A stretch of DNA of 64,000 nucleotides from Thauera propionica (GTDB taxonomy: Bacteria > Pseudomonadota > Gammaproteobacteria > Burkholderiales > Rhodocyclaceae), in assembly GCF_002245655.1 (NCBI RefSeq), contig NZ_NOIH01000009.1, positions 1-64,000 on the forward strand, given 5' to 3'. Position 1 is the first letter of the stretch; each line of letters begins with the position of its first letter. Positions 4,140 through 44,428 of this stretch are shown piece after piece. Position numbers and translations under genes: made by a program. The notes beneath the pieces were generated by a model. The model was given only the letters and a program-made list of their open reading frames with translations, ran no database searches and was not told the DNA's origin.

Positions 4140-4388
4140 TTGGATATCAAGAAGGAAGTGCTGGCCGTCATCGATGAGGTGCTCAGCCTTGGTGGGCGTG
4201 CACATTCGTTTGACCTGGATACGCCCTTGCTCGGAGCGGTTCCCGAGCTTGACTCGATGGCGGTGGTCGGCTTGATCAACCTGATCGAGGAGCGCTTCGG
4301 GTTCGTTGTTGAAGACGATGAGATCGACGGATCGTCGTTCGCGACCGTGGGTACCTTGGTGGAGTTTGTGGAAGGCAAGCTCGCCTGA
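4140..4388 (+). CDS. Acyl carrier protein, exosortase-A system associated
   Basis: 82 aa, normal ACP length, acidic and helical. The phosphopantetheine attachment motif is ELDSM with Ser39, in the usual place before helix II, followed by GLINLIEERFGFVVEDDEI. It starts at TTG 4140 with AGGAGA five bases upstream; no ATG fits. It is the first gene of a three-gene set, with the stop 2 bases before hydrolase 2. No polyketide or fatty-acid synthase genes are near, so it probably carries an acyl or aminoacyl group for polymer modification. Candidate loading enzyme is the acyl-CoA/ACP ligase at 19991-21571. In XrtA loci an ACP of this kind typically accompanies the two hydrolases. Confidence 0.88.
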   Translation: MDIKKEVLAVIDEVLSLGGRAHSFDLDTPLLGAVPELDSMAVVGLINLIEERFGFVVEDDEIDGSSFATVGTLVEFVEGKLA

Positions 4389-4390: not shown

Positions 4391-5224
4391 ATGACGGACG
4401 TGGTCCGCGAGGCCTTCTTTCTGGAAGCCGGGGGGGGTGGGCGCTTTTGCGTACATACACATCACGCCTCGGCGCGCGCCGGCAATGTGCTTTTGGTGCC
4501 GCCGTTTGCAGAAGAGCTGAACAAGTCACGGCGCATGATGGCGCTGGCTGCCCAGGCTTTTGCCGAGCGTGGTTGGCGTGTGCTGCAGCACGACCTGCTC
4601 GGCTGTGGTGACAGCGCGGGCGATTTTGGTGATGCCAGCTGGGCGGCTTGGCTGGACGATGTCGATCGAGCATGTGCCTGGCTGGAACAGGACGACGATG
4701 CGCCGACAGTGATCTGGAGTCTGCGCGCCGGTAGCCTGCTCGCCGCGGACTGGATGAAGAAGGCCGGTAGAGCGTTGCCTTGGTTGGCATGGCAGCCCGT
4801 GAGCAACGGGAAGCAGCATCTGCAGCAGTTCTTGCGCCTGAAGGGCGTCAGCGAAATGCTGGCTGAGGCGGATGCGAAGGCAACGATGTCTGCATTGCGA
4901 CAGGCTTTGGCCGAGCGGCAGGTGGTCGAGGTTGCGGGGTATGCAATTGCGCCGGAGTTGGTCGATGGCCTGGAGTCGTCGGTTCTGGACATTGCGCCAG
5001 GTCATGCCGCGCCGATCTGCATGTTCGAGCTGGTAGGCCAGGCGGAACCCGAGTGTTCCCCCGCTTTGCGCCTGCTCGTGGATCGATTGCGCAAGCAGGG
5101 GGGCACGGTGGAGGCGCGGGCCCTTCAGGGGCCTGCCTTCTGGCAGACCCAGGAGATCGAGACGTCTCCGACGCTCATCGAGGCATCGTGCGAGGTGCTG
5201 GAAGGGTGGCGCCGTGCACACTGA
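4391..5224 (+). CDS. Exosortase-A-associated alpha/beta hydrolase 2
   Basis: 277 aa, an alpha/beta-hydrolase fold protein of the hydrolase-2 type tied to XrtA systems. The hallmark VPPFAEELNKSRRM is at residues 36-50 and the QHDLLGCGDSAGDF strand/loop follows at about 66. At the nucleophile elbow the sequence is IWSLRAGS. Aligned to the partner hydrolase (LWGLCDGA), the nucleophile position is Arg112, so a classical Ser/Cys triad is not apparent. It may therefore be a binding or regulatory paralogue, or use different chemistry. It starts 2 bases after the ACP stop and overlaps hydrolase 1 by 11 bases, indicating translational coupling. Confidence 0.88.
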   Translation: MTDVVREAFFLEAGGGGRFCVHTHHASARAGNVLLVPPFAEELNKSRRMMALAAQAFAERGWRVLQHDLLGCGDSAGDFGDASWAAWLDDVDRACAWLEQDDDAPTVIWSLRAGSLLAADWMKKAGRALPWLAWQPVSNGKQHLQQFLRLKGVSEMLAEADAKATMSALRQALAERQVVEVAGYAIAPELVDGLESSVLDIAPGHAAPICMFELVGQAEPECSPALRLLVDRLRKQGGTVEARALQGPAFWQTQEIETSPTLIEASCEVLEGWRRAH

Positions 5225-6083
5225 GCGAGCCGTAAGTTTCGACTGCGAGGGCGAACGGCTGATCGGTGTCGTGACCCAGCCCGCGGCGAGTGAACGGCCC
5301 GCCAGGATCGGTGTGGTGATCGTGGTGGGGGGGCCTCAGTATCGCGTTGGCAGTCACCGCCAGTTCGTACTTCTGGCGCGATTCCTTGCCGATAACGGCG
5401 TGCCGTGCATGCGCTTCGATTACCGCGGAATGGGCGACGCGACTGGCGCCGCGCGGGACTTCGAGGGTGTGACGCTGGATCTCGAGGCGGCCATCGATGC
5501 ATTCGTGCGCGAGGTGCCCGGCGTGGCCAAGGTCGTGCTGTGGGGCCTGTGTGACGGCGCGAGCGCGATCTGTTTTGGCCTTGGACGCGACGCGCGCGTG
5601 GGCGGCGCGGTACTGCTGAATCCCTGGGTGCGCACCGCTTCCGGTGAGGCACGGACGATGCTCAAGCACTATTACCTGCGCCGGCTTTTTGACCGGCAGT
5701 TCTGGCTCAAGCTGCTGCGGGGCGGGGTCAGCATTCGCAGGGCCTTGGGTGGCGTGACATCTGCGGTTGGACAGGCGGCGGGCGCGGACGGGCAGGCGTC
5801 CGGCGCCGGCCAGCAGGCGAGCGTGCCTGAGCGGATGATCAAGGGGCTGCAGTCGTGCAGCGTGCCGATTGCCGTCTTTCTGAGTGGACGGGATTACGTG
5901 GCACGGGAGTTCGAGCAGTGCGTGGCCGCCGACCGCAACTGGTCGGCGCTGATCCGCTCAGAGCGTTGCGTACTGCGGCACTTCGACGATGCTGATCACA
6001 CGTTTTCAAGTTCGGAGCATCGACATGCGATCGAGTTGGCGACGCTCGAGTGGCTAAACCGGATCGCGGCACATACCGGTTAG
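5214..6083 (+). CDS. Exosortase-A-associated alpha/beta hydrolase 1
   Basis: 289 aa, GTG start inside the end of hydrolase 2 (11-base overlap). Alpha/beta-hydrolase motifs in order: GGPQYRVGSHRQF near 39-51 (oxyanion region), FDYRGMGDA near 68-76, nucleophile elbow WGLCDG with Cys113, likely acid Asp227 (SGRDYVA) and His262 (DDADHTF). A Cys nucleophile in place of Ser is a feature I recall for this subfamily. A Gly/Ala/Gln-rich stretch at about 184-205 looks like a flexible insertion. Hydrolases 1 and 2 occur together beside XrtA loci; the substrate is not established. An ACP thioester on the neighbouring carrier protein is a reasonable guess. The stop overlaps the convergent Mur-Pth gene. 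Confidence 0.88.
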   Translation: MHTERAVSFDCEGERLIGVVTQPAASERPARIGVVIVVGGPQYRVGSHRQFVLLARFLADNGVPCMRFDYRGMGDATGAARDFEGVTLDLEAAIDAFVREVPGVAKVVLWGLCDGASAICFGLGRDARVGGAVLLNPWVRTASGEARTMLKHYYLRRLFDRQFWLKLLRGGVSIRRALGGVTSAVGQAAGADGQASGAGQQASVPERMIKGLQSCSVPIAVFLSGRDYVAREFEQCVAADRNWSALIRSERCVLRHFDDADHTFSSSEHRHAIELATLEWLNRIAAHTG

Positions 6084-7987
6084 CGACCACCATTCGCAAT
6101 GACGGTCTGAACCTGCTCGATCGCTTTGGTTTGTGCGCTTCGGAGCAGGTCGTGGTCCTCTTCCTGAAACCGTTCGAGCACGATCGAGCGTGCCGAGCTT
6201 CCTGCGCGATCCGTCTTGCGTACGCCGACGCGGATGCGCGAGATTGCACCACCATTCCCCAACGCTGAGAAAACTGAACGCAATCCCTTGTGTCCCCCGT
6301 CACTCCCACTGTGCTTCGAGCGCACGTCGCCCAGGTTGAGGTCGGCATCGTCATGAACAAGGGCGATGCGGTTGGGGTGCACGCCAAATCGTTGCAGGGT
6401 GCGGGCAACGAAAGGGCCGCACAAGTTCGTCAGTGTTGACGGCTTGAACAGGATGACTTCGTGATCGTTGAGCTTCGCGTGACTCAGCATCCCTTCGTTG
6501 GTCATCTGCCACTGTGCTGATAGCCGCTCGGCAAGGTGGTCGAGTACGGCGAAACCGATGTTGTGCGGAGTGCCGGTGTAGGCTTCGCCGTGGTTTCCCA
6601 TGCCCACGATGAGCCATCCCGGGTGGACTGATTCGCTCGAGTGCGCTGGTGATCCGATGCCGGGGGAAGCTATGTCGGGGCCTGTCGTGATGCCGGATGC
6701 GACTACCGATGCGGTCGCCACGTTCGCGCCATGGGCCGGCTTGTCCAGTTCCGGACAGGCATCGCAGAAGCGGTTAAAGCCGCAGTCCCGACGCCAACAG
6801 AGAACCTGACGGCGGCGGGCGAGCAGGAGTCGAAAGAGATGGTCGGCGTGATTCGATGCCTTCAACAGGACCAGATCACCCTCGCGTAATTCGCGCTGCA
6901 GGAAACGGTGGGCGTCCTCGAGTTCCGTGAAGCCGACCAGGGAGTGATCGTCTTCACTTTGTCTTGCCTTCAGCGCTCGCAAGGCATGAGGCCCGACGAA
7001 GACGACGAGGTCGGCGACGTCCATGGCCAGCCGCGCCGCTTTGGGGTAGAGCTTGGATGCGGAAAGCGAATAGTCGGAGATGGTCCCGATGATCGCGACC
7101 TTGCGCTTTGCTCTGGCGTCCCGCAGGTACTCGAGCGTTATGGGGAACGACCAGTACGGAGCCTTGTAGTCGTCGCGGATGAAGGTGACCCCGTCGGATT
7201 CGCTGACAATCTGCATCCGTCCCGGTGTCGTCGTCGCGTCTCCGAGCGCAGCCAGGCACGTCTCGATGGGGGCGCCTGCAGCGATGCCGATGCCAATGGC
7301 AGCGAGAACGGGCACCACCAGGTGTTTGCCGTGTATGGCGGTAGCGCACCGGTATTGCACGCCTTGGTACTCGATGACGAGCGTCAAGGGGTCGGGCCAG
7401 GAAGACGTTGCTTCAATGAGCCGGATGTCCGCCTGCGGTGCGCTGCCAAACCAGAGGCATCTTGCGCGGGTCCGGGCCCCGATCGATTGCACGAGAGGGT
7501 CGTCGATATTTAGGACGGCGACGCCGTTCTCGGGCAGGGCCAGGATCATCGCCGCCTTTTCGTCCGCAATTGCCTCGATCGACTCGAAACTCTTCACGTG
7601 CTCCCGCTGCACTACGGTCAGTGCCCCAATCTTCGGCTGTACCAGCTCGGTCTTGCAGGCAATGTCGCCGGGCAGCAGGGTTGCGATCTCTATGACAGAG
7701 AAATGGTCCCGGCCCCGTGTGTTGAGGATGACCATTCCGACTTCAGGAAGGTAGTTGAGCGACGCATGATTGCAACTGACCGGGCCGAGACGGCGCAGGA
7801 TGGCCACGGCCAGGTCCTTCGTTGTGGTTTTTCCGGCTGAGCCGGTGATGCCAACGAAAACCGTATCCTTGAGTCGTCGCCGCTTGAGGCGTGCCAACGC
7901 AAGGACGCAACGATCATGCACCCTGATGCTGCGCCATTCCACGGCGCGTCGCAGGTTATCCAGCAGGCTGACAGCGGCACCTCTCAT
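6080..7987 (-). CDS. Mur ligase-like / peptidyl-tRNA hydrolase-like fusion protein
   Basis: 635 aa from ATG 7987 (GAGG eight bases upstream). Residues ~40-390 are a Mur-ligase core: P-loop GITGSAGKTTTKD (46-58), MurF-like NYLPEVGMVIL, ALPENGVAVLNIDDP and a C-terminal domain with IIGTISDYS. The usual N-terminal UDP-sugar-binding domain is missing. A Cys4 cluster (Cys397, 402, 408, 411) and a ~45-residue Ser/Ala/Pro linker follow. Residues 457-635 are a peptidyl-tRNA hydrolase domain keeping GMGN (Asn465), TPHN (His475), LTN (Asn521) and HDDAD (Asp546). By alignment from memory these match E. coli Pth Asn10, His20, Asn68 and Asp93; E. coli Asn114 is Lys567 here. Neighbours are polysaccharide and ACP genes. 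A tRNA- or peptide-linked amide ligase role is inference. A separate housekeeping pth is expected elsewhere. Confidence 0.82.
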   Translation of the reverse strand: MRGAAVSLLDNLRRAVEWRSIRVHDRCVLALARLKRRRLKDTVFVGITGSAGKTTTKDLAVAILRRLGPVSCNHASLNYLPEVGMVILNTRGRDHFSVIEIATLLPGDIACKTELVQPKIGALTVVQREHVKSFESIEAIADEKAAMILALPENGVAVLNIDDPLVQSIGARTRARCLWFGSAPQADIRLIEATSSWPDPLTLVIEYQGVQYRCATAIHGKHLVVPVLAAIGIGIAAGAPIETCLAALGDATTTPGRMQIVSESDGVTFIRDDYKAPYWSFPITLEYLRDARAKRKVAIIGTISDYSLSASKLYPKAARLAMDVADLVVFVGPHALRALKARQSEDDHSLVGFTELEDAHRFLQRELREGDLVLLKASNHADHLFRLLLARRRQVLCWRRDCGFNRFCDACPELDKPAHGANVATASVVASGITTGPDIASPGIGSPAHSSESVHPGWLIVGMGNHGEAYTGTPHNIGFAVLDHLAERLSAQWQMTNEGMLSHAKLNDHEVILFKPSTLTNLCGPFVARTLQRFGVHPNRIALVHDDADLNLGDVRSKHSGSDGGHKGLRSVFSALGNGGAISRIRVGVRKTDRAGSSARSIVLERFQEEDHDLLRSAQTKAIEQVQTVIANGGR

Positions 7988-8208
7988 GACGAATTCCTCA
8001 CGTCCGAACTTCAAAGTGAAAAAAGCTACATGGTGCTGACGCAAAACGGCTCGCTTTGCAGGGGCACTCCAGGGAGCGCTGGGCCTGCGAGGCGATATCA
8101 CTGCGGCTACGACTGCTGGGCTTGCTCAGGCTACGTGGCGGGGAGTTATGTCGGCAACGCGAGTCCATGACGGCATGACTCATCCCGCGGAGGTCGTCTA
8201 GTTCTTCA

Positions 8209-9552
8209 TCATGTCCGCTGGCGTGCGGGGCGGCCAACACTGAAGTACTGCCAGCCGTCTTCTTCCAGACGGTTCGGGCTGTAGAGGTTGCGTCCGTCCA
8301 CAATGACCTTGCCCTTGAGCAGGTTCGCCATTTCCTCGAAATCCGGTGCCCGGAACTGCTGCCATTCCGTGCAGATTGCCAGTGCATCGGCGCCTTCCAG
8401 CGCGCTGTACTTGTTGCCGCACAGTGCGAGATCAGGCCGGTCGCCGTAGATGCGCCGGGTCTCGTCCATTGCCACCGGATCGAAGGCCTGTACCTTGGCG
8501 CCGGCGCCCCACAGCGCCTCGATGAGCACGCGGCTGGGGGCCTCGCGCATGTCGTCGGTATTGGGCTTGAAGGCCAGGCCCCAGACGGCGATCGTCTTGC
8601 CTGCGAGCTTGTCGGCGCCGCCGAAGTGGCGGGCCAGTTTGGCGAAGAGGGTGGTCTTCTGGCGATTGTTGACCGCTTCGACGGCCTTGAGCAGCGGGGC
8701 CTCGTAGCCGATCTGGTCGGCGGTGCGACCCAGAGCCTGGACGTCCTTGGGGAAGCAGGACCCACCGTAGCCGCAGCCGGGGTAGATGAAGTGGTAACCG
8801 ATACGCGGATCGGCACCGATACCCTTGCGCACTTCCTCGATGTCCGCGCCCACGATCTCGGCCATGTTGGCGAGCTCGTTCATGAAGCTGATCTTGGTGG
8901 CGAGCATGGCGTTAGCGGCGTACTTCGTGAGCTCGGCACTCTTCACGTCCATGAACATGGTGCGTTCGTGGTTGCGGTTGAAAGGCTCGTAGAGCTCTCG
9001 CATCCGCTCTTGCGCCTTGGCCGAGCGGGTGCCGATGATGATGCGGTCGGGCTTCAGGAAGTCACCGACGGCGGCACCTTCCTTGAGGAATTCGGGGTTG
9101 GAAACGACATCGAAGGCGATCTGCTCGCCGCGCTCTGCAAGGATCTGTTCGACTTTGGCCTGGACCTTGTCTGCGGTTCCGACCGGGACTGTGGACTTGT
9201 TGACGATGACGCGGTAGCTCGGCATGTGGCGGGCGATGCTCTCGGCCACTGCGAGCACGTACTGGAGGTCGGCCGAGCCGTCTTCGTCGGGCGGTGTACC
9301 GACGGCAATGAACTGCACCTCGGCATGTTTGACCGCATCTTCCACATCGGTGGTGAAGCGCAACCGGCCCTCGGCGACGTTGCGCTCGACGATGGGCTGC
9401 AGGCCCGGCTCCCAGATCGGTATGACCCCGGCTTTGAGCTTGTCGATCTTGCGCTGGTCGATGTCTATGCAGACGACTGTGTGGCCGACTTCTGCCAGGC
9501 ACGCGCCAGTGACGAGACCGACGTAGCCGGTACCGAAGATGGTGAGTTTCAT
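8209..9552 (-). CDS. ugd: UDP-glucose 6-dehydrogenase
   Basis: 447 aa, full length for the family. Oxidises UDP-glucose to UDP-glucuronate with two NAD+, supplying an acidic sugar for the exopolysaccharide. Rossmann motif [15 protein letters not shown] at 7-21; [33 protein letters not shown]; catalytic Cys266 in [10 protein letters not shown]; second nucleotide domain [17 protein letters not shown]. The gap to the next downstream gene (Mur-Pth fusion) is ~220 bases. I see nothing firm in that gap. It could form an operon with the MBOAT pair upstream on the same strand (139-base gap). Confidence 0.95.
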
Positions 9553-9691: not shown

Positions 9692-10816
9692 TCAGTTAGG
9701 TAGGCAGCTGTTGTTGTCGAGGAGCCGTGCAAGCATCACCTCGCCCAACTCTGCCGTGTAGTGCGCAGGCTCCCAAAACCACCGTATGTGCTTGTTCAGA
9801 ATCTCCGGGCCAGGTGGCTCCTCGTCCAGATCGAGCCCTTGCGTGTTGAAGTTCTTGAACGGCACGCCCGAAGTCGTCGCTATTTCTTCAATTTTGCTGA
9901 CCCACTGCGCGTAGGTGTCGCCCAATCCCGATTCGGCGATGATTCGGTGGTAGTCGGCGTGGTAAGGATTGATGAAGAGCGTGACGGATAACTCGTGCTG
10001 CCGCGCCCAGTCTAAAAAATTGCGCAGGGCGTCAAAGCTTTCCGAGCTCTGCTGGCCGCGAGGTAGGAGGCCGAGCGTAGGCTTGGATAGGCGGGTGCGC
10101 AGCTCCGCGTTTTTCTGTGCAAAGAGAACGTGCTGTCCTTCGCTCCGAATAATGGCCTGATAGTCACGCCCGGGATTGAAACCGTCGGCTCTACGGTCCG
10201 ACGTGAGGGGGACCTGCTGCTGGATCACGGTTTCGAGCGAGTCAGTCAGGGTTGTGAGTGAGAACAGTGCGCCGAGTTTGTCCCGGGCCTGCAGTTGAAT
10301 GAGTTGCCAGGCGGGAACATCCTCGCTGCGGATGTGAAGGCGCCCGGCGTAGCTCCGTGCCAGCGCGGGCCAGTTGGGCGCGTGGGCCGGCGCGTCTTCG
10401 TCCTCCAGAAAATCCAGGAAGTCAACCGCGAGCAGGACGTGTTTGCCGCCGCCGGCCATTAGGGCGTGCTTTGCGTACTGCGTCTGCATGTAGAAGCTGG
10501 CGCCGGGGATACCAGTGTTGAAGACCGGTTTGTAGTCATCAGGCCAACAGGGGCTTTGCGGGTTGAGACCGAGTTCGGGGCGTGAGTTGCCGGCGATGAC
10601 TGTGGCCGGGCGTGCAGCGGTGGCCATGTAGGGCTTGGCAACTCGCACGCGTTCAGCGGCGGCGGGCTTTATGGCGTTGAAGCCTTGGGTGCGGGGGGTA
10701 CCGAACAGGCCGTAGGGGTCGATGAGGTAATTGAGGCAGGCAACTGCAGCGCACACCAGGGCAAAGCTGAGCGCCAACCAGAGCAGGAAGCGACGCGAGG
10801 CGGTGGGGCTGTCCAT
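9692..10816 (-). CDS. Membrane-anchored SGNH-like protein, partner of MBOAT acyltransferase
   Basis: 374 aa with one N-terminal membrane segment (FLLWLALSFALVCAAVACLNYL, residues ~10-31) and a periplasmic remainder. GNSRPELGL near residue 75 resembles the GxS/GSS block of SGNH/AlgJ-like proteins. WEPAHYTAELGEVMLARLL near the C-terminus sits where a DxxH block would be, with Asp replaced by Glu. It begins 7 bases after the MBOAT stop on the same strand. In alginate and related systems an MBOAT protein moves acetyl groups across the membrane and an SGNH-like partner transfers them to the polymer. Assignment to that role rests on gene pairing and these weak motifs. Confidence 0.65.
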   Translation of the reverse strand: MDSPTASRRFLLWLALSFALVCAAVACLNYLIDPYGLFGTPRTQGFNAIKPAAAERVRVAKPYMATAARPATVIAGNSRPELGLNPQSPCWPDDYKPVFNTGIPGASFYMQTQYAKHALMAGGGKHVLLAVDFLDFLEDEDAPAHAPNWPALARSYAGRLHIRSEDVPAWQLIQLQARDKLGALFSLTTLTDSLETVIQQQVPLTSDRRADGFNPGRDYQAIIRSEGQHVLFAQKNAELRTRLSKPTLGLLPRGQQSSESFDALRNFLDWARQHELSVTLFINPYHADYHRIIAESGLGDTYAQWVSKIEEIATTSGVPFKNFNTQGLDLDEEPPGPEILNKHIRWFWEPAHYTAELGEVMLARLLDNNSCLPN

Positions 10817-10823
10817 GGCGGGT

Positions 10824-12410
10824 TCAGAACTGGAAGTAGAGGAATTCGGAGATGCGCGTCATGGCGAGCACGGCGATTGAGGCGAGCAGACCGATGCCAA
10901 TGGCCCAGCTGATGCTTTCGTGCCAAGCGAGTTTGTCCGTGAGTTGCTTGCCTGGCTGGAGTTCGTCTTCGTCGCGACCTCGATGCAGATGAAGGCCGGG
11001 CTGGGAGTAGCGCATGATCTGCTGCGTGTTGGGCATGATGAGAGCGATTGGCAGCAGCGCGGCGATCCACAGCCAAGTGAAGACGAACTGCGAGCCGCCG
11101 CCGAGGTAGGTGTTGAAGCCGAAGCTGGCGAGTACGGGCCACACCGCATCTAGTCGTGCGGCGATGGCGTTGGGCAGTGCGATGCCGTTGAGGCCGGCCA
11201 TGCCCTGCAGCACGGCGACGGCAGTGTCGAAGCTGCCTGCGCGGAAGAATACCCAGCCGATGACGACGGCGACGAAGGTGACGAGCCACGACAGGGCCTT
11301 GGCAAGCGGTGCTGGAAGCAACCCCTGCGGGCAGAGGCGTGCGGTGGTGTGCCGCCAGGCGTGGTTGATGCACAGATACAGGCCGTGCAGCGCGCCCCAG
11401 GCGACGAAGGCCCAGCCCGCGCCGTGCCACAGGCCGCCGAGCAGCATGGTGAGCATGAGGTTGCGGTAGCGCATGAGCCGCCCTGCGCGGTTGCCGCCGA
11501 GCGCTATGTAGAGGTAGTCGCGTAGGAATGCCGACAGCGTCATGTGCCAGCGCCGCCAGAATTCGATGATGTTGGTGGCCTTGTAGGGCGAGTGGAAGTT
11601 GACCGGCAGGACAATGCCGAACATGCGCGCGGCCCCGATTGCCATGTCGGAGTAACCGGAGAAGTCGAAGTAGAGCTGAAGCGTGTAGGCGAGCGCGCCA
11701 CCCCAGGCTTCGAAGAAGCTAAGCGTGCTACCCGCGGCGGCGGCATTGAAGACCGGAGTGGCGTACTGGGCGACGCCGTCGGCGAGGACGGTCTTCTTGA
11801 AAAGCCCGAGGGCGAAGATGCTGAGGCCGATGGCCATGTTCTGCGCCCGCGGCATGAGCGCACCGGGCTTCATGAACTGCGGCAGTATGTCGCGGTGATG
11901 GACGATGGGGCCGGCGATGAGCTGTGGGAAAAAGGTGACGAAGAGCGCGTAGTGGGCGAACCGGTATTCGCGCGCTTGGCCTTGGTATGCGTCGACGAGG
12001 TAGGCGATCTGCTGGAAGGTGAAGAAGGAGATTGCTAGCGGCAGGATGATGGTGTCGAGGTGGAGGTTGGTGCCTGCGATGGCGTTGAGGCTGTTGACGG
12101 TGAAGTTGGCGTACTTGAAGTAGCCGAGCAGGGCGAGGTTGAAGGCGACACCAGCCGTCAGCCAGGCTTTGCCAACATGCCGAAGGCCTTGGCGGTGCGC
12201 GAGTTCGAGCAGGCTACCGAGGCCGAAGTTAACGAGCATCGAAAAGAGCAGCAGCAGCAGATAAACCGGCCGCCACCACGCGTAAAAGAACAGCGAAGCC
12301 AGCACCAGCCAGACAATCGCTGGCTCATGACCTCGCCGCGCTACCCAGAAGTAGCCTGCGAGCGTAATCGGCAGGAACAGGAAAAGAAATTCGTACGAGT
12401 TGAAGAGCAT
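10824..12410 (-). CDS. MBOAT-family O-acyltransferase (AlgI/DltB-like)
   Basis: 528 aa polytopic membrane protein. The N-terminus MLFNSYEFLFLFLPITL is typical for the AlgI branch. Core motifs are YFKYANF, FFTFQQIAYLVDAY, LYFDFSGYSDMAIG, NIIEFWRRWHMTLS with RDYLYI, and the invariant His in GGLWHGAGWAFVAWG near residue 330. These enzymes bring acyl groups (usually acetyl) across the inner membrane for transfer to a surface polymer. First gene of the MBOAT/SGNH pair. No obvious Shine-Dalgarno precedes ATG 12410. Confidence 0.92.
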   Translation of the reverse strand: MLFNSYEFLFLFLPITLAGYFWVARRGHEPAIVWLVLASLFFYAWWRPVYLLLLLFSMLVNFGLGSLLELAHRQGLRHVGKAWLTAGVAFNLALLGYFKYANFTVNSLNAIAGTNLHLDTIILPLAISFFTFQQIAYLVDAYQGQAREYRFAHYALFVTFFPQLIAGPIVHHRDILPQFMKPGALMPRAQNMAIGLSIFALGLFKKTVLADGVAQYATPVFNAAAAGSTLSFFEAWGGALAYTLQLYFDFSGYSDMAIGAARMFGIVLPVNFHSPYKATNIIEFWRRWHMTLSAFLRDYLYIALGGNRAGRLMRYRNLMLTMLLGGLWHGAGWAFVAWGALHGLYLCINHAWRHTTARLCPQGLLPAPLAKALSWLVTFVAVVIGWVFFRAGSFDTAVAVLQGMAGLNGIALPNAIAARLDAVWPVLASFGFNTYLGGGSQFVFTWLWIAALLPIALIMPNTQQIMRYSQPGLHLHRGRDEDELQPGKQLTDKLAWHESISWAIGIGLLASIAVLAMTRISEFLYFQF

Positions 12411-15473: not shown

Positions 15474-16715
15474 TCAGATGAGTACTTCGGTGACCGCCGG
15501 ATGCCCCAAAAACCTTTGCGGACTGGCCGTGGCGCCATAGGCGCCCGACTGGTAGATGACCACCAGATCGCCCGGCCCGGCCGCGGCTAGGTTCATGCGG
15601 TCGGCCAGCAGGTCGAGCGGTGTGCATAGCGGGCCAACGACGGAGACGGTTTCCTGCTCGGTTGCGTCCATGCGGTTGCCGATGGCCGCGGGGTAGTTCT
15701 TGCGGATGACCTGGCCGAAGTTGCCCGAGGCGGACAGGTGGTGATGCAGGCCGCCGTCGGTGACGAGGTAGGTGTGGCCGCGCGAGACCTTCTTGTCCAG
15801 CACCTTGGCGACGTATAGCCCCGCTTCGCCCACGAAGTAGCGGCCGAGCTCGATGACGATCTCGGCTTGCGGCAGGGCAGTTTTCGCCTGCGCCACGATG
15901 TCGGCGAGGTTGGCACCGATCGGGGCGAGATCTAGCGGCTGTTCGCCCGGGAAGTAGGGGATGCCGAAGCCGCCGCCAAGGTTGAGGAACCTGACCGGCG
16001 ACGGCGCGTGCTCGGCCAGCCGGCAGGCGAGCGCGAAGCTCTTCTGCTGGGCCTCGACGATGGCTTCGGGCTTGAGGTTCTGCGAGCCGGCGAAGAGGTG
16101 GAAGCCTTCGAAGGCGAGCCCGGCGCGGCCGATCGCGGCGAGCAACTCGGGGACCTGTTCGGCGTCGACGCCGAACTGCTTGGGCCCGCCGCCCATCTTC
16201 ATGCCCGAGGACTTCAGTTCGAAGTCTGGATTCACGCGTACCGCGACGCGCGCCGGCAGGCCGAGCGCCTGCTGGGCGGCGGCGAGGATGGGCAACTCGC
16301 GGAAGGATTCGACGTTGACCAGGATGCCTGCGGCCACGGCCTGGTGCAGCTCGGCGTCGGTCTTGCCGGGGCCCGCGAAGCTGATCTCCTGCGGATCGGC
16401 GCCGGCGTCCAGCGCCACCATCAGCTCGCCCGCGGACGCCACGTCGATGCCGTCGACCAGTGTCGCCATGTGGCACACCAGTGCCGGCATGGGGTTGGCC
16501 TTCATCGCATAGTGCAGCTTGACCTCGGCCGGCAGGGCGGCGCGCAACTGCGCTACGCGGGCGCTGAGCAGACTGCGGTCGTAGGCGTAGAAGGGCGTGC
16601 GTCCCACACGTGCGGCAATGCGGCTGATGGGCTGGTCGTTGATGAGCAGGTCGCCTCCGGCGCTGCGAAACTGGTTCATCGGCGTGTGGTCGGGCAGCTT
16701 GCGGGTTTCGGTCAT
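15474..16715 (-). CDS. PLP-dependent decarboxylase, exosortase-A system associated
   Basis: 413 aa from ATG 16715; the frame is open further upstream but MTETRKLPDH is the first sensible start. Fold-type III (alanine-racemase-like barrel plus beta domain), as in diaminopimelate/ornithine decarboxylases. PLP Lys72 in HYAMKANP, AGELMVAL, NLGGGFGIPYF glycine loop, ELGRYFVGEAGLYV, and active-site Cys in GPLCTPLDLLADR. This is the decarboxylase that accompanies the XrtA acyl-CoA ligase. It probably decarboxylates an amino acid, perhaps while it is tethered, for polymer decoration; the substrate is not known. Last gene of the acyl-CoA ligase/beta-helix/asparagine synthase/decarboxylase run, 80 bases after the synthase stop. 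Confidence 0.9.
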   Translation of the reverse strand: MTETRKLPDHTPMNQFRSAGGDLLINDQPISRIAARVGRTPFYAYDRSLLSARVAQLRAALPAEVKLHYAMKANPMPALVCHMATLVDGIDVASAGELMVALDAGADPQEISFAGPGKTDAELHQAVAAGILVNVESFRELPILAAAQQALGLPARVAVRVNPDFELKSSGMKMGGGPKQFGVDAEQVPELLAAIGRAGLAFEGFHLFAGSQNLKPEAIVEAQQKSFALACRLAEHAPSPVRFLNLGGGFGIPYFPGEQPLDLAPIGANLADIVAQAKTALPQAEIVIELGRYFVGEAGLYVAKVLDKKVSRGHTYLVTDGGLHHHLSASGNFGQVIRKNYPAAIGNRMDATEQETVSVVGPLCTPLDLLADRMNLAAAGPGDLVVIYQSGAYGATASPQRFLGHPAVTEVLI

Positions 16716-16795
16716 TTCGAGTCTCGATTCGGCAGGGCTTTGCGCAGCGTGTGATCGGCTGTTTCGTCGGTGGTGATGAGGGGCACTGACGTGCG

Positions 16796-18592
16796 TCAGG
16801 CCGTCTCGTGTTCCCGCATCCAGAACTCCATCATCATCAGGATCCACACCATTTCGCCGTAGTAGCCGGGGTGGGCCGGCAGGTGCGTCTTCAGGAGTTC
16901 GTCGATGAACTGCGGGCGGACGATGCCGCGGTTGCGGAAGCTGCCCAGGGCATCGGTTGCAAGCGCCTTCAGCCCCGTGTGCTGGCAGGCCCAGACACCG
17001 AAGGGCAGGCCGAAGCCGTGCTTCTTCTTGGCGATGATCTCGTCGGGCAGGAAGCCGCGCAGGGCTTCCTTGAAGAACCAGCGCAGTGTCAGGCGCTTTA
17101 GCTTCCATTCCGGCGGCAGCGTGAGCGAGAAGTCGGTGAGTTCGTCGCTGAGCAGCGGGAAGGCCACATCCACGCCGGCCAACTGGGTGGTGCCGACGAC
17201 CTTGGGCAGGTCGTTGTCGGCCAATGTGTACTTCCAGTCGTAGTTGAGCATGCGGTTAATGTGGGCGCTGGCATTGGTGGCCTGCCACACCTCGCGCTGC
17301 GCGCGGTAGGGGCGGTCGGTGTCGACACGCGCGATGAAGTCGGGCGCGAAGACGGTGTCCATACCCAACTGGATCAGCATGTTGTACATGTGGATGCGGT
17401 CCGGCATGGGCACGCGGGCCTGCTCGACGTAGCTGACACCTTTCTTGAGCAGCGGGATGCGGCCCATGCCGGGCAGGGCCAGCGTGGGCTCGAGCAGGCC
17501 ACGGCGCAGCAGGCCGGGCACGCCGTCGTACCAGCCGAAGATGCGCTGCTTGGCGTAGCGGGTGTTGCCGCCGAACAGTTCGTCGCCGCCGTCGCCGGCG
17601 AGCATGCGCTCGATGCCATCCTCGCGCGCGCGCGTGGCGCAGATCCAGCCGGGCAGGGCCGACGAGTTGCCGAAAGGCTGGTCGTAGTGGGTGGCGACCT
17701 GCGGAATGCCTGCCACGAGGTCGTCGGGAGTGACGTAATACTCGCGGTGGTCCGCGCCGAAGCGCTTGGCGGCGATGCGGGCGTACTCCATCTCGTCATA
17801 GCCACTGGCATCGAAACCGATGGAGTAGGCGCGCGCAGGCTGGCCGACCACCTTGCACAGCATGCCGGTGACAGTGGAACTGTCCGTGCCGCCCGACAGG
17901 AAGCAACCCACGCTGGCGCCCTCGGCCTCGCGGCGTACGTCGTCCTCGATGATCTGGAGGAAGCGTGCTTTGGATTCCTCCAGGCTCGGGGTGTTGTCTT
18001 CCTCGAAGACCGCTTGCCACCAGCGCCGGCATTCGGCCTTGCCATCCTGCCACTTGAGCAGGTGGCCCTGGGGAAGCCGGAAGACGCCTTCGAAGATGGT
18101 CGTCGGCGCCGGGATCATGTGGAAAAATAGGTATTCGAATACCGCCTGCGACGAGATCTTCCGCGGGACGCCGGGGAGCGTGTCGGCGCGGTCGGAGAAA
18201 TGCAGTCGTCCCTCGTGTTCGGCATAGCAGATGGGCCAGGTGCCGAAGCGGTCGGTGGCGAGCAATGCCTGGCTGCCATCCCGGGCGATCAGGATGACGC
18301 TGAAGCGGCCGGCGGCTTGCTGTACAGCGGCGTCTCCGTGGGTGCGGAAGGCCTGCGCCCAGGCCGCGGCGGCGCCGCGCTGCTCTTTGAGTTGCTGCAG
18401 GGCGGCGTTCTTGAAGCGGGGGGAGCCAAGCGCAAGGCAGACGCTGCCGTCATCCTGGAAGACCGTTACATCCGTCCGGTAACCGATGGCACCTTGGGGA
18501 AACTGCAGACGCGCCAGGTTTTCGGGAAAGATCCGGCTGGTGTCGGTGACTGCGTCCGACGCGTGAAGAACACCACAGAACCGCTCGAGCAC
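16796..18592 (-). CDS. Asparagine synthase family protein with atypical glutaminase N-terminus
   Basis: 598 aa, GTG start with GGAG upstream. The C-terminal ATPase half is intact: PP-loop FLSGGTDSSTVTG near residues 231-243, EYYVTPDDLV, HYDQPFGNSSALP, and GDGGDELFGGNTRY. In the N-terminal glutaminase half the catalytic Cys should directly follow the initiator Met, but the sequence reads MLERFCGVLHA, leaving Cys at position 6, and the RGPD loop is not evident. It may therefore use free ammonia or be a sugar/aminoacyl amidotransferase that lost glutaminase activity, unless five residues are cleaved off. In the XrtA cluster, downstream of the beta-helix gene. This is a different branch from the MCGI-starting XrtA amidotransferase. 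Confidence 0.82.
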   Translation of the reverse strand: MLERFCGVLHASDAVTDTSRIFPENLARLQFPQGAIGYRTDVTVFQDDGSVCLALGSPRFKNAALQQLKEQRGAAAAWAQAFRTHGDAAVQQAAGRFSVILIARDGSQALLATDRFGTWPICYAEHEGRLHFSDRADTLPGVPRKISSQAVFEYLFFHMIPAPTTIFEGVFRLPQGHLLKWQDGKAECRRWWQAVFEEDNTPSLEESKARFLQIIEDDVRREAEGASVGCFLSGGTDSSTVTGMLCKVVGQPARAYSIGFDASGYDEMEYARIAAKRFGADHREYYVTPDDLVAGIPQVATHYDQPFGNSSALPGWICATRAREDGIERMLAGDGGDELFGGNTRYAKQRIFGWYDGVPGLLRRGLLEPTLALPGMGRIPLLKKGVSYVEQARVPMPDRIHMYNMLIQLGMDTVFAPDFIARVDTDRPYRAQREVWQATNASAHINRMLNYDWKYTLADNDLPKVVGTTQLAGVDVAFPLLSDELTDFSLTLPPEWKLKRLTLRWFFKEALRGFLPDEIIAKKKHGFGLPFGVWACQHTGLKALATDALGSFRNRGIVRPQFIDELLKTHLPAHPGYYGEMVWILMMMEFWMREHETA

Positions 18593-19990: not shown

Positions 19991-21571
19991 TCAAACCTCG
20001 CTCGACAGCGTCTTGCGGTCGATCTTGCCGTTGGGGTTGCGCGGCAGCGGCCCGTCGCGCACCTCGATGCGCGTCGGCACCATGTAGGCCGGCATGCGCC
20101 GGCGGCATTCGGCCAGCAGCGCGGCGGTGTCGAGCGAACCTCCCTGCGGCGGTGTGGCGATGACCGTGATGCTCTGGCCCAGGGTGTCGTGTGCGACGCC
20201 GAAGGCCGCGCATTCACCGACGAGCTTGGTCGCGTACAGGATCTCCTCGACCTCGGTGGGGCTGACGCGATAGCCGGAGGTCTTGATCATCTCGTCGCGG
20301 CGGCCGATGAAGTAGAGGAAGCCTTCTTCATCGCGCCGCACGGTGTCGCCGGAGAACACGGCGATCTCGGGCAGCACAAGGCCGTTCTGTCGGCCCGGCG
20401 CGTGGCTGGGCAGGGGCTTGAAGCGTTCGGCGGTCTTCTCGGGGTCGTTCCAGTAGCCCATCGCGACGAGCGCGCCGCGCTGCACGAGCTCGCCCGGTTC
20501 GTTGGGGGCGCATTCGCTGCCGTCCTCGCGCAGCACGACCACGTCGGAATTGGGGATGGCCTTGCCGATCGAGTCGGGGCGGCGGTCGGCTTCTTCGGGC
20601 GGCAGGTAGGTGGCGCGGAAGGCCTCGGTGAGGCCGTACATCAGGAAGGGCCGGGTCTTCGGCAGCATGCCGCGCAGCGTGGTCAGAGTCTCGAGCGGCA
20701 TGCGGCCGCCAGTGTTGGCGATGTAGCGCAGGTGCTCGGTGATGGTCTCCGGCCACTTCAACTGCGAGAGCTGGATCCACAGCGGGGGGACGGCGGTCAG
20801 GCCGGTGACCTTCTCCTTCTCGATGGCCTTCAGTACGTCGCGCGGCAGCAGATAGTTGAGCAGGACGACGCGCGCGCCGCTGTGGAAGGCGGTGGTCAGC
20901 TGCGAGAAGCCTGCGTCGAAAGACAGCGGCAGCGCCGCCAGCAGGGTGTCGTCGGGGTTGTTCCCGAGGTACTCGGCAACGCTCTTGGCGCCGGTGACCA
21001 TGTTGCGGTGGGAGAGCACGACGCCCTTGGGCCGGCCGGTGCTGCCCGAGGTGTAGAGGATGGCGGCCATGTCGGCGTCGATGACGCGGTGGCCAGGTAT
21101 GGCGGGCGCCGTCAGCAGGTCGATGAGTCGATGCACGGATGCGCCGGGCAGGGCAGGGAGTTCCGCAGGATTGCCGGTGAGCACGACGTGGCGCAGGTCG
21201 TGGCAGCTACCCAGGGTTTCGGCGAGCGCAGCGAACCGCTCGGGCGAGGTCACCAGCACTCGAACGTTGCAGTCCTGCAGGATGTAGCCCACCTGTTCGG
21301 GCTTGAGGATCGAATTGACCGGTACGAATACGCCGCCCGCAGCCGTGGCGCCGAACATGCCCACCACCGTCTCGATGCGCTTGTCCAGGTAGATGCCGAC
21401 CCGCTCGCTGCGCTCCAGGCCCAGTTGGCGCAGCCCGGCGGCAAAGGCCTGCACTTCGACAGCCAGTGCGTCATAAGTGCGGTGTTCGGCGCCGAAGGTC
21501 AGCGCGACCGCGTCGGGCGTTCGATGGGCGGACGAGAAGATGAGCTGGTGCAGCAAATAGGTTGCGTTCAT
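19991..21571 (-). CDS. Acyl-CoA ligase (AMP-forming), exosortase-A system associated
   Basis: 526 aa from ATG 21571. ANL-superfamily adenylating enzyme: A3 motif LYTSGSTGRPKGVVLSH near 168-185, A5 YGLTEAFRAT, A7 GELVQRGALV, A8 GRRDEMIKTSGYRVSP, and the catalytic Lys in NPNGKIDRK near 516. It activates a carboxylate as the adenylate and transfers it to a thiol, either CoA or possibly the Ser39-linked pantetheine of the nearby ACP. This is the ligase that typically accompanies the XrtA PLP decarboxylase. First gene of a four-gene minus-strand set. The ~180-base gap downstream of the SLC13 gene holds its promoter region, but no clear boxes were found. Confidence 0.9.
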   Translation of the reverse strand: MNATYLLHQLIFSSAHRTPDAVALTFGAEHRTYDALAVEVQAFAAGLRQLGLERSERVGIYLDKRIETVVGMFGATAAGGVFVPVNSILKPEQVGYILQDCNVRVLVTSPERFAALAETLGSCHDLRHVVLTGNPAELPALPGASVHRLIDLLTAPAIPGHRVIDADMAAILYTSGSTGRPKGVVLSHRNMVTGAKSVAEYLGNNPDDTLLAALPLSFDAGFSQLTTAFHSGARVVLLNYLLPRDVLKAIEKEKVTGLTAVPPLWIQLSQLKWPETITEHLRYIANTGGRMPLETLTTLRGMLPKTRPFLMYGLTEAFRATYLPPEEADRRPDSIGKAIPNSDVVVLREDGSECAPNEPGELVQRGALVAMGYWNDPEKTAERFKPLPSHAPGRQNGLVLPEIAVFSGDTVRRDEEGFLYFIGRRDEMIKTSGYRVSPTEVEEILYATKLVGECAAFGVAHDTLGQSITVIATPPQGGSLDTAALLAECRRRMPAYMVPTRIEVRDGPLPRNPNGKIDRKTLSSEV

Positions 21572-21749
21572 GACGGTCTGGGCTTGTGGGAGGCTGTGGA
21601 TGATGCAATGCCACAAGGTTAGACTCAGAGCGTGAAGGCGACAACCGCCTTGGGCCGGAAAACGGCTGCGGAGGTGCCGCGATAGGCGTTTCTATTGAGA
21701 CGCACTCTCCCTTCGCGGGCAGTGCCCGCCAACAGGGCGGGTTGTCGAT

Positions 21750-38237: not shown

Positions 38238-38270
38238 GGAGTGCCGTTTCGTGAAGGCGCGCCGCAGCCT

Positions 38271-38276
38271 TATACT
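38271..38276 (+). promoter_or_regulatory. Candidate -10 box of the first mrp operon
   Basis: TATACT, with no convincing -35 at the right distance (TTCGTG is nearest). A start near 38283 would place the hairpin at 38295 in the first 15 nucleotides of the transcript. Confidence 0.35.
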
Positions 38277-38294
38277 TTGGCGGCAACACACCCA

Positions 38295-38320
38295 GCCCGG
38301 ACCCGGTCCGGGCATTTTTT
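38295..38320 (+). terminator. Intrinsic terminator in the mrpA leader
   Basis: Stem GCCCGGAC/GTCCGGGC (8 bp, perfect) with a 3-base loop, then A and six T's. It points in the direction of mrpA and lies 65 bases before the mrpA start, with no plus-strand gene upstream for it to end; the upstream gene, iclR, is antisense. That suits attenuation of the mrp transcript. Confidence 0.75.
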
Positions 38321-38337
38321 CTTGATAGGAGCCTGCG

Positions 38338-38388
38338 ATGAGGTTTCCCCAGCGCGGGGCTCGCGGGCTGGCCCGGAGTCTCCGATGA
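38338..38388 (+). CDS. 16-aa Arg-rich leader ORF coupled to mrpA
   Basis: ATG 38338 with AGGAG six bases upstream; product MRFPQRGARGLARSLR (5 Arg in 16). Its TGA (38386-38388) overlaps the mrpA ATG (38385) as ATGA. Too short to judge by composition; the ribosome binding site and stop/start overlap are the evidence. It may couple or gate mrpA translation. Confidence 0.4.
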   Translation: MRFPQRGARGLARSLR

Positions 38389-41246: not shown

Positions 41247-41668
41247 TGGAGTTTCTCGTCGCCAGTGCGATTGGCGTCATGACCGCAGCTGGCATCTACA
41301 TGGTGCTGCGTGCGCGCACCTTCCCGGTGGTGATCGGCCTGTCACTGCTGACCTATGCCACCAACCTGTTCCTGTTCGCCACCGGGCGGCTCGCGGTCAA
41401 CCAGCCGCCGGTGATCGGTGCCACAGCCGGCGCCTACGTCGACCCCTTGCCCCAGGCGCTGGTGCTGACCGCCATCGTGATCTCCTTCGGCATGACTGCG
41501 GTGGTGGTCGTGATGGCGTTGCGTGCCTATCTGGAGACGGGCAACGACCACGTCGACCTCCCTGGCGATGCCTCGCCCGAGGCGAGCGAGGACGACTGGA
41601 AGCTGCGTGGCCGCAAGCAGGCTCCGGTGCCGCAGTCGGTCTTCGGCAGCGGGGGAGAGCGGGCATGA
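41246..41668 (+). CDS. mrpC: Mrp antiporter subunit C, operon 1
   Basis: 140 aa, NuoK-like with three membrane segments: GVMTAAGIYMVLRARTFPVVIGLSLLTYATNLFLF and DPLPQALVLTAIVISFGMTAVVVVMALRAY. A polar C-terminal tail of ~45 residues follows. The start overlaps the mrpA stop by 1 base, and the stop overlaps the mrpD ATG by 4 bases, so translation is coupled. Confidence 0.94.
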   Translation: MEFLVASAIGVMTAAGIYMVLRARTFPVVIGLSLLTYATNLFLFATGRLAVNQPPVIGATAGAYVDPLPQALVLTAIVISFGMTAVVVVMALRAYLETGNDHVDLPGDASPEASEDDWKLRGRKQAPVPQSVFGSGGERA

Positions 41669-43185
41669 ACCATACGTTGATCCTGCCCATCCTGCTGCCG
41701 GCCGTGGTCGGTGCACTGCTGGTGATGGCGGCACGCTACGACAAGGTGCTCGCACGCGCCTTCTCGCTGGCTTCGGCCGTACTGCTGCTGGGCGTGGCGA
41801 TTGCGCTGTTCGTGATCGCGAGCGACGACAGCGTGCGTACCTACGCGCTCGGGGCGTGGCCTGCGCCGTTCGGCATCGTGCTGGTACTCGACCGCCTAGC
41901 CGCGCTGATGCTGTTGCTCAATGCGGTGCTCGGCCTCGGCGTGCTGCTCTATGCTGTCGGTGGCTGGGACATGCGTGGCAAGCATTTCCACCCGCTGTTC
42001 CAGTTCCAGCTGATGGGTATCAACGGTGCCTTCCTGACCGGCGACTTCTTCAACCTGTTCGTGTTCTTCGAGATCCTGCTGATCGCGTCCTACGGCCTGA
42101 TGGTGCATGGGGGAGGCGGGCTGCGCGTGAAGGCCGGCGTGCAGTACGTGGTGACCAACCTCGTCGGCTCCTCGGTGTTCCTCATTGCGGTGGGTCTCAT
42201 CTACAGCGTCACCGGTACGCTCAACATGGCCGACCTGGCGCTGAAGGTGCCGCAGGTGCCGGCCGGCGACCAGGCTTTGCTGCAAACCGGGGCGGTACTC
42301 CTGCTGCTGGTGTTTGCGGTGAAGGCCGCGCTGGTGCCGCTGCATTTCTGGCTGCCAGGCACCTACGCCAATGCGCCGGGCCCGGTCGCCGCGCTGTTCG
42401 CGATCATGACCAAGGTGGGGGCGTACTCGATCATCCGCATGTATATGCTTGCATTCGGCGCGGATGCCGGCGAGGCTGCCTGGCTGGCAGCGCCCTGGCT
42501 GCTGCCGGCGAGCCTCGTGACGCTGGTGCTGGGCATGACCGGCGTGCTGGCCGCGCGCAGCCTGGGGCAGATGGCGAGCTTTGCCGTGATCGGCTCGATG
42601 GGTATGCTGCTCGCCACCGTGTCGGTGTTCACCCAGCAGGCGATCGGCGCCGCCCTGTACTACCTGGTCCATTCCACCTTCGCCGCGGGGGCGCTGTTCC
42701 TGATCGCCGACCTCGTCGCCGAGCGCCGTGGCGTGCAGCGCGACCGCTTCGTCCTGGCGCCGCGCTTCGCACAGGGCGGGCTGATCACCGCGATGTTCTT
42801 TGTCGCCGCGATCGGCGTCACTGGCATGCCGCCACTGTCCGGCTTCATCGGCAAGCTGCTGATCCTCGATGGCGTGCGGGATTCGGCGCATGCGGCCTGG
42901 TTCTGGACGCTGATCCTGTCGACCTCGCTGATCGCGATCGTCGGTTTCTCGCGCGGTGGCAGCCTGGTGTTCTGGAAGAGCCATGCGCTGCCACCGGCGC
43001 CGGCGTCCGGGCATCGGCCCGCCGCGGCGCCCTTCGTTGCGGTCGGTGCGCTGCTGGCATGCCTGGTGGCGCTGACCGTGTTCGCCGGGCCTGCGCATGC
43101 CTGGCTGGAGGGTGCGGCTGTGCAGCTCTTCGCACCGGCGGGTTACATCGAGGCCGTGATGGGCACGCTGCAGGAGGTCCGCTGA
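41665..43185 (+). CDS. mrpD: Mrp antiporter subunit D, operon 1
   Basis: 506 aa from ATG 41665. NuoM/N-like proton-translocating subunit, ~14 membrane segments. FFEILLIASYGLMVHGGG carries the conserved TM5 Glu; FAVKAALVPLHFWLPGTYANAPGPVAALFAIMTKVGAYS carries the conserved Lys residues; GMPPLSGFIGKLLILD. Overlaps mrpC by 4 bases and mrpE by 1. Confidence 0.95.
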   Translation: MNHTLILPILLPAVVGALLVMAARYDKVLARAFSLASAVLLLGVAIALFVIASDDSVRTYALGAWPAPFGIVLVLDRLAALMLLLNAVLGLGVLLYAVGGWDMRGKHFHPLFQFQLMGINGAFLTGDFFNLFVFFEILLIASYGLMVHGGGGLRVKAGVQYVVTNLVGSSVFLIAVGLIYSVTGTLNMADLALKVPQVPAGDQALLQTGAVLLLLVFAVKAALVPLHFWLPGTYANAPGPVAALFAIMTKVGAYSIIRMYMLAFGADAGEAAWLAAPWLLPASLVTLVLGMTGVLAARSLGQMASFAVIGSMGMLLATVSVFTQQAIGAALYYLVHSTFAAGALFLIADLVAERRGVQRDRFVLAPRFAQGGLITAMFFVAAIGVTGMPPLSGFIGKLLILDGVRDSAHAAWFWTLILSTSLIAIVGFSRGGSLVFWKSHALPPAPASGHRPAAAPFVAVGALLACLVALTVFAGPAHAWLEGAAVQLFAPAGYIEAVMGTLQEVR

Positions 43186-43712: not shown

Positions 43713-43978
43713 TCGAATATGCACTGACGTTCGGATTCTGTGCGGTCTCGCTTGCGCTGCTGCTCAATCTTTGGCGACTGCTGCGCGGCCCTTCGCTGAT
43801 GGATCGGGTGCTCGCGGTCGATACCATGGTGATCAACGCCATCGCGCTGATCATCCTGTTCGGCATCCAGCAGCGCACCACGATCTTCTTCGAAGGCGCG
43901 CTGCTGTTCGCGATGTTCGGCTTCATTTCCACCGTTGCCTACTGCCGCTTCATCCTGCGCGGCGACGTCATCGAGTGA
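43709..43978 (+). CDS. mrpF: Mrp antiporter subunit F, operon 1
   Basis: 89 aa with three membrane segments and GPSLMDRVLAVDTMVINAIALI, the signature loop with conserved Asp residues (family pattern GPxxxDRVxAxDxL). GTG start overlaps the mrpE stop by 4 bases. Confidence 0.93.
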   Translation: MIEYALTFGFCAVSLALLLNLWRLLRGPSLMDRVLAVDTMVINAIALIILFGIQQRTTIFFEGALLFAMFGFISTVAYCRFILRGDVIE

Positions 43979-43989
43979 GCGGGGACAGT

Positions 43990-44397: not shown

Positions 44398-44428
44398 GGG
44401 CGGCGCAGGGCGTTGGGAGTGAGTGAGA

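Follow-up and report, generated by a model that had tools for sequence, protein, structure and literature searches.

Why would a ligase core of the MurF type be carried on the same polypeptide as a peptidyl-tRNA hydrolase (Pth)? The question is posed by a gene in the first 64,000 nucleotides of contig NZ_NOIH01000009.1 of Thauera propionica, the stretch referred to here as the window. The minus strand is the coding strand of the gene, which runs from an ATG at 7987 to a stop codon at 6080–6082 and encodes, in a single uninterrupted frame of 635 residues, a Mur ligase core, a cluster of four cysteines (Cys4) and a Pth domain. We tentatively propose, from sequences and a structural model, that this Mur-Cys4-Pth fusion is a two-step amide synthetase, in which the Mur part would activate a carboxylate, the amine of an aminoacyl-tRNA would attack it, and the Pth part would free the extended chain. 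No publication on the architecture was found in the literature searched; as far as that literature goes the architecture is new, and both of its domains are of known folds.

Domain architecture of the fusion protein

An initial annotation of the window, made from the sequence alone, had described a MurF-like ligase joined to Pth in one frame, and the open reading frame (ORF) and the Pfam and NCBIfam matches bear this out (Table 1). The NCBIfam score of the protein lies above the cut-off for pth (136.1 against 100) and below that for murF (193.5 against 288.6 bits). The N-terminal domain of MurF, which binds the UMP of the UDP-sugar, is missing, as had been claimed: the P-loop is reached already at residue 49, the family profile match begins at residue 97 of A. 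baumannii MurF, and the AlphaFold2 model and the Foldseek comparison agree. The model, computed from 18 aligned fusions, has a mean predicted local distance difference test (pLDDT) score of 82.9 and a predicted template modelling score (pTM) of 0.65. Foldseek against the PDB places proteins of the Mur-ligase fold at all ranks from 1 to 38, headed by MurF 4qf5 (E 3.8e-27, TM 0.70 on the target), and the Pth structure 7y52 at rank 39 (TM 0.86 on the target, root-mean-square deviation 2.0, 31% identity). The annotated Cys4 at residues 397–411 and the linker behind it were recovered as well, residues 419–455 being predicted to be disordered, and the Pth domain has the residues ascribed to it: the catalytic His and Asp and two Asn are kept, Lys stands at the position of E. 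coli Asn114, and TPHN takes the place of canonical TRHN. Chance and a frameshift artefact between two genes are excluded as sources of the joint by a 99% identical protein, encoded on one contig of G017, another genome of the genus, and by fusions of 35–51% identity in other genera.

The Mur part resembles MurF in its middle and C-terminal domains, its P-loop and its top sequence and fold matches, but differs from it, besides the missing UMP-binding domain, in the C-terminal Cys4, a basic core and the score below the cut-off. The Pth part has the fold (7y52) and the active site of Pth1 and a profile score above the cut-off, but it is borne by a ligase and is additional to a canonical Pth, which is encoded separately in the window's own genome and in 13/13 fusion genomes tested (the reversed fusion described below included). 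The likeness that had been drawn between the Cys4 and the zinc ribbon of MurT was not supported. MurT also combines a Mur core lacking the UMP domain with four cysteines; its ribbon, however, sits inserted in the middle domain, whereas the Cys4 of the fusion follows Mur_ligase_C as a C-terminal tail past the Mur fold, and the MurT match is weak (E 4e-10) and covers the ATPase domain only.

Conservation of the catalytic residues

Conservation was assessed in an alignment of 35 rows of the Mur-Cys4 family, with 53 MurF-like proteins as controls, and in 24 fused Pth domains; these come from 13 genomes, of which 12 have a C-terminal Pth and one, G484, has the reversed order. None of the 35 Mur-Cys4 rows lacks the P-loop Lys, Glu100, His130 or any of the four cysteines, and the motif CX4CX5CX2C, found in every one of these rows, occurs in 0/53 controls. 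The carbamoyl-Lys site holds Lys in 28/35 rows; the seven exceptions, Met, Val or Ile, are confined to L073 (2/4 copies), L074 (2/4) and Candidatus Propionivibrio aalborgensis (3/3 readable). P-loop Gly52 is replaced by Ala in three rows, one each from a double-Mur protein, Nitrosomonas mobilis and G484. Judged by these residues, the multi-copy sets contain standard modules alongside altered ones, and some of the copies may therefore not be ordinary ligases. The loci with Met, Val or Ile at the carbamoyl-Lys site are L073, L074, L176 and L177; the first two mix two such copies with two of the Lys type, possibly as paired active and altered modules.

E. coli numbering was assigned to the Pth domains by motif; a DNA search with E. 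coli Pth gave no match. Asn10, His20, Asn21, Asn68, Asp93 and His113 are invariant in 24/24 fused domains, where 14 of 188 positions are invariant in all, an enrichment at the active site with a hypergeometric p of 5e-8 (uncorrected for relatedness). Positions 105 and 133, which we take to be the clamp of Pth for the tRNA 5'-phosphate, are basic in 23/24 and 24/24 domains, respectively. The fused Pth might be imagined as a non-enzymatic scaffold or a tRNA sensor, and CRS2, a protein of the Pth fold that is not known to be catalytic, is indeed among the sequence matches, but with six active-site residues invariant in 24/24 domains such a role is very improbable.

Two other positions set the fused domains apart from canonical Pth. 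Pro instead of Arg precedes the catalytic His in 21/24, and position 114 is Arg in 18 and Lys in 6, against Asn in 15/15 canonical Pth proteins from fusion and stand-alone genomes. The initial annotation had contrasted the change at 114 with the residues kept, but it does not argue against Pth activity: according to PMC11994314, the Pth of T. thermophilus has Arg103 at this site and requires it, the R103A variant having 6% of the wild-type kcat/Km. The same source credits the first Asn (Asn10) with distinguishing peptidyl- and N-acyl-aminoacyl-tRNA from aminoacyl-tRNA. Given the Arg103 of Thermus and the retained Asn10, the change at 114 is consistent with an active enzyme, whose substrate class appears unchanged. 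The Mur core, for its part, is basic, with a mean charge of +3.8 over alignment residues 41–390 against −4.4 over the profile match in the 53 MurF-like controls (p 1e-9, uncorrected for relatedness), as would be expected if it met tRNA.

Repeated units and two domain orders

Fusion genes form multi-copy sets in four genomes, with 3, 4, 4 and 4 copies. The metagenome-assembled genomes (MAGs) of Rhodoferax and Propionivibrio carry four tandem copies each, N. mobilis has three copies side by side, one of which runs opposite to the other two, and P. aalborgensis has two copies on each of two contigs, one of the four being cut at a contig end. Downstream of the four-copy array at L073 (15536–19684) lie genes for proteins of 936 and 439 residues with no Pfam or NCBIfam match at the limits used. 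In Thioalkalivibrio a single frame of 1110 residues reads Mur-Cys4-Mur-Cys4-Pth, and in G484, a MAG, the order is Pth-Mur-Cys4. The Rhodoferax, Propionivibrio and P. aalborgensis sets each contribute one paralogue to a supported clade (100/99); by this tree at least part of the duplication predates the three genomes.

The trees make two origins of the Mur/Pth fusion likely, though not proved. The Mur of G484 clusters with stand-alone proteins (100/99) and not with the C-terminal fusions; these contribute 23 Mur rows, on a branch supported at only 91/91. On the Pth side, all 23 C-terminal domains fall into one clade (98/95). A clade of all fused Pth domains was not recovered: the best tree places that of G484 outside, with canonical Pth, though a single origin is not rejected (approximately unbiased test, p-AU 0.308). 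No reversed fusion was found beyond G484 among 3 genomes of its family, and the reversed order therefore rests on one MAG.

A two-step model of amide synthesis

Mur ligases form an acyl phosphate, which an amine then attacks, and Pth cleaves N-acyl-aminoacyl-tRNA while sparing free aminoacyl-tRNA. A Mur core taking aminoacyl-tRNA as its amine would thus make precisely the substrate of Pth, with the donor left alone. In the model that we propose, the Mur core would phosphorylate a carboxylate on a surface-polymer precursor, which may be a peptide end, a uronic acid or a carrier-bound acyl group; the amino group of aminoacyl-tRNA would attack it to give N-acyl-aminoacyl-tRNA; and the tethered Pth, kept blind to the free donor by its conserved Asn, would hydrolyse the ester. 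The freed chain would be one residue longer and would offer a new free carboxylate to the next module, and adjacent genes and the double-Mur protein could in this manner lengthen the chain residue by residue, as MurC to MurF do. Coupling of the two activities is supported by the C-terminal Pth of 13 genomes, the N-terminal Pth in another Mur-Cys4 branch and the single Pth behind two Mur modules, and the model would explain both fusion orders, the shared Pth and the repeated units. The canonical Pth present in addition to the fused one also speaks for the model, as do the FemAB-like/GNAT (PF13480) genes at four fusion loci (L071, L072, L073 and L075); Fem-type enzymes use aminoacyl-tRNA. More tentatively still, the fusions could be a new class of tRNA-dependent peptide synthetase with the Mur-ligase fold, each unit adding one residue and releasing the tRNA, and serial units forming a ribosome-free line that would build peptides on exosortase-linked surface polymers.

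A precedent for the proposed chemistry is that of the peptide aminoacyl-tRNA ligases (PEARLs) TglB, BhaB and AmmB, in which a carboxylate is phosphorylated with ATP, aminoacyl-tRNA attacks it and the tRNA is released by hydrolysis (PMC12945691, PMC11962472). According to these two papers, PEARLs are LanB-like proteins with an ATP-grasp-like site that extend ribosomal peptides, and no Mur or Pth domain is described for them in the parts consulted, whereas the fold of the fusion is Mur plus Pth.

The link between amide ligation and tRNA had already been made in the initial annotation and stands as the most economical reading, although there the steps ran the other way: Pth would detach a peptide or N-acyl amino acid from tRNA, and Mur would then link its carboxylate to an amine on the polymer or carrier. 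We regard this order as rather improbable. Pth does precede Mur in the chain of G484, and the FemAB-like/GNAT genes, together with aminotransferase genes nearby, could provide N-acylation and amine acceptors. A separate source of N-acyl-aminoacyl-tRNA would however be required, abortive peptidyl-tRNA being an unspecific feedstock, and repeated whole Mur-Pth units would be left without a reason. The Mur-first, Pth-last order of the two-step model needs fewer extra parts.

Distribution of the fusion

Relatives were sought in genome_contigs by means of two exact peptide patterns, so that the numbers are a lower bound. Of 125 relatives the best 80 were listed, and 10 of these 80 span nearly the entire fusion. 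They come from Halochromatium, two strains of E. mobilis (one of them G520), N. mobilis, P. aalborgensis, Thioalkalivibrio denitrificans, and MAGs of Rhodoferax, Propionivibrio, Desulfuromonadales and Kiloniellaceae. The C-terminal fusion, Mur-Cys4 followed by Pth, is present in 13 genomes in all, from Ectothiorhodospira to the Desulfuromonadales MAG. Within the genus of the window, G017 is the only carrier among 28 other members searched, and among 200 genomes of relatives (its own included) the fusion occurs in the own genome and G017 only. A class sample of 369 genomes contains two C-terminal fusions (G000, G520), the reversed fusion of G484 and stand-alone Mur-Cys4 proteins in G507 and G279; a phylum sample of 398 genomes contains the fusion of the own genome only, with stand-alone Mur-Cys4 in 4 genomes of one other genus (E 1e-70 or better). 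The order of G520 has the fusion in 4/47 genomes, of which G949 is a new addition and two more are probably the L070 and L076 records again. The rarity and scattered occurrence of the fusion suggest loss or horizontal transfer.

Neither viruses nor plasmids could be put forward as its source or carrier. Two scans of viral_contigs found no relative. Of 146 matching plasmid records, none has a single place covering more than 80% of the query, and the best listed match is a stand-alone Mur-Cys4 on a Gemmobacter plasmid, beside glycosyltransferases.

Genomic setting

The exopolysaccharide (EPS) and exosortase setting described in the initial annotation holds for the own genome, where the fusion lies with an exosortase A (XrtA/PEP-CTERM) type set, but it is not universal. 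The locus of G017 is syntenic with the window, and hydrolases 1 and 2, the acyl ligase and the decarboxylase of this set stand beside the fusion at L072 as they do in the window. Both hydrolases and the acyl ligase recur at L074, with an acyl carrier protein (ACP) recognised by homology to that of the window; the acyl ligase and the decarboxylase recur at L076, an amidotransferase-like gene at the G949 locus, and a PEP-CTERM protein, glycosyltransferases and a pyruvyltransferase-like gene at L068. Exosortase-cassette or polysaccharide genes were seen beside 7/13 fusions, L071, L073 and L075 being counted neither way, and they do not always accompany it: none were found at the two E. mobilis loci (from translations read by eye, the second strain by homology) or among the five L077 neighbours scanned.

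Table 1. Features of the fusion gene and its neighbours in the window (residue numbers are those of the fusion protein; PLP, pyridoxal 5'-phosphate)
Feature	Position	Strand	Evidence
Mur-Cys4-Pth fusion gene, 635 aa	6080..7987	−	ORF; 99% identical protein in G017
GAGG, Shine-Dalgarno-like tetramer, 8 nt before the ATG	7996..7999	−	sequence
Residues 2–38, single long N-terminal helix replacing the MurF UMP-binding domain	7874..7984	−	AlphaFold2 model
Mur_ligase_M, residues 47–233; P-loop GSAGKTT 49–55; Lys144 at the carbamoyl-Lys site	7289..7849	−	Pfam 6e-21 and family alignment
Mur_ligase_C, residues 256–378	6854..7222	−	Pfam 9e-13; fold match to MurF
CX4CX5CX2C, residues 397–411 (C397, C402, C408, C411)	6755..6799	−	sequence, family rows
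Disordered linker, residues 419–455	6623..6733	−	pLDDT < 50 in the AlphaFold2 model
Pth domain (Pept_tRNA_hydro), residues 459–631; His475, Asp546, Asn465, Asn521; Lys567 at the E. coli Asn114 position	6095..6613	−	Pfam 7.7e-42; fold match 7y52
Acyl carrier protein (PF00550)	4140..4388	+	Pfam
Hydrolase 2, exosortase A system-associated (TIGR03101)	4391..5224	+	NCBIfam
Hydrolase 1, exosortase A system-associated (TIGR03100); overlaps the fusion gene at their stop codons	5214..6083	+	NCBIfam, sequence
UDP-glucose 6-dehydrogenase-type enzyme, upstream of the fusion in the same direction	8209..9552	−	Pfam, NCBIfam
PLP decarboxylase, exosortase A-associated (TIGR03099)	15474..16736	−	profile match
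Asparagine synthase-like amidotransferase; best match TIGR03108, under cut-off	16796..18592	−	profile match
Acyl-CoA ligase, exosortase A-associated (TIGR03098)	19991..21616	−	profile match

The own genome encodes an exosortase (C27, E 1.5e-71), as do 11/12 C-terminal-fusion genomes tested (G574 being the exception), two of which lie outside the comparison class, against 92/274 class-sample genomes (Fisher p 8e-5; 5e-4 for 9/10 after near relatives are collapsed, kinship being otherwise uncorrected). In G017, G566 and G571 the exosortase shares a contig with the fusion, at a distance of about 21–36 kb. An exosortase was also found in 4/4 stand-alone Mur-Cys4 genomes tested and not in the reversed-fusion MAG G484. 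The exosortase is nevertheless far commoner in the class than the C-terminal fusion (2/369).

Several of these genes bear on a rival explanation, which we consider unlikely: Mur would use free amino acids, and Pth would be an esterase recruited for another ester or thioester of the pathway, such as an acyl-ACP or a mis-acylated carrier. The ACP genes of the window and L074, the acyl ligases of the window, L072, L074 and L076, the PLP decarboxylases of the window, L072 and L076, and the existence of stand-alone Mur-Cys4 proteins without a Pth partner would all fit such a role. A new ester should, however, have relaxed some of the Pth residues, whereas Asn10 and the active site are kept in 24/24 domains and the presumed 5'-phosphate clamp in 23–24/24.

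A second partner is a ligase gene of the ATPgrasp_ST family (PF14397). In 7/12 genomes tested, a gene that exceeds the cut-off lies no more than about 5 kb from the fusion, and a homologue is also present in G949; none scores over the cut-off in the window's genome or in G017, those of the E. mobilis pair lie on other contigs than the fusion, and the one match in G574, likewise on another contig, exceeds the cut-off only together with its in-frame neighbours. The UDP-glucose 6-dehydrogenase was discarded as a fixed partner: it is present in the window and G017, with a weaker homologue in G949, and at the other loci none of the ORFs compared is a homologue. Elsewhere in the window, a gene of the MBOAT family (DltB-like, under the cut-off) and one without a family match follow each other in the direction of the fusion at 9692–12410 and resemble a polysaccharide acylation pair, and two opposed gene sets at 38241–51480 resemble, in translations read by eye, Mrp-type Na+/H+ antiporters.

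Stand-alone relatives and the weight of the tRNA step

Of the genomes with stand-alone Mur-Cys4 proteins, G507, G279 and G575 have one canonical Pth each, and in the MAG G576 no Pth was found; the ligase can thus act in the absence of Pth, perhaps on free amino acids. The four stand-alone carriers of the phylum sample, G616, G620, G636 and G682, belong to one Pseudomonadota genus. At L184 the stand-alone gene lies amid genes for glucose-6-phosphate dehydrogenase, a glutamine-synthetase-like protein and an FAD oxidase, not EPS genes, so that the Mur-Cys4 ligase family overall is not an EPS family. The setting of L184 is perhaps a small-molecule amide pathway, and L185 has the same series of ORF lengths. 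A verrucomicrobial tandem Mur-Cys4 pair without Pth was seen at L078 (133–5556) and L079; at L078 it adjoins an AMP-ligase/carrier/thioesterase protein and a glycosyltransferase.

The absence of a Pth partner in G507, G279, G575 and G576 weighs against the two-step model, as do several other observations. The Pth-less relatives share the basic charge, and a basic Mur core could be just as well suited to a carrier or polymer of acidic character. The fused Pth has a mean charge of −0.4 against +0.9 for canonical Pth and is not supported as an unusually basic RNA binder. Its invariant residues are those of canonical Pth and argue for activity, not for a new role, and it evolves faster than the Mur part (dN/dS in two pairs 0.97, with very few changes, and 0.49 for Pth; 0.07 and 0.26 for Mur). 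Seven copies in the multi-copy sets have Met, Val or Ile at the carbamoyl-Lys site, and three modules have Ala for Gly52. No tRNA genes, which might have indicated a dedicated donor, were found in the window or in 18 loci scanned (L204/G949 lying outside the scan). The Pth-less relatives and the faster evolution of Pth would be accounted for if Pth served as quality control, recycling dead-end N-acyl-aminoacyl-tRNA made when Mur occasionally takes aminoacyl-tRNA over a free amino acid; we hold this to be quite unlikely, since the canonical Pth present in the fusion genomes would suffice alone.

Implications

If the two-step model is true, the fusion would represent a second, unrelated solution to the PEARL reaction, derived from a cell-wall ligase fold and provided with built-in tRNA release and serial modules. 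It would also give a testable role to part of the exosortase A gene set and be a source of new enzymes for amide formation. Should the tRNA step prove wrong, the recurrent fusion of a ligase with a hydrolase, in both orders and with as many as four copies in a genome, still points to a pathway that is uncharacterised.

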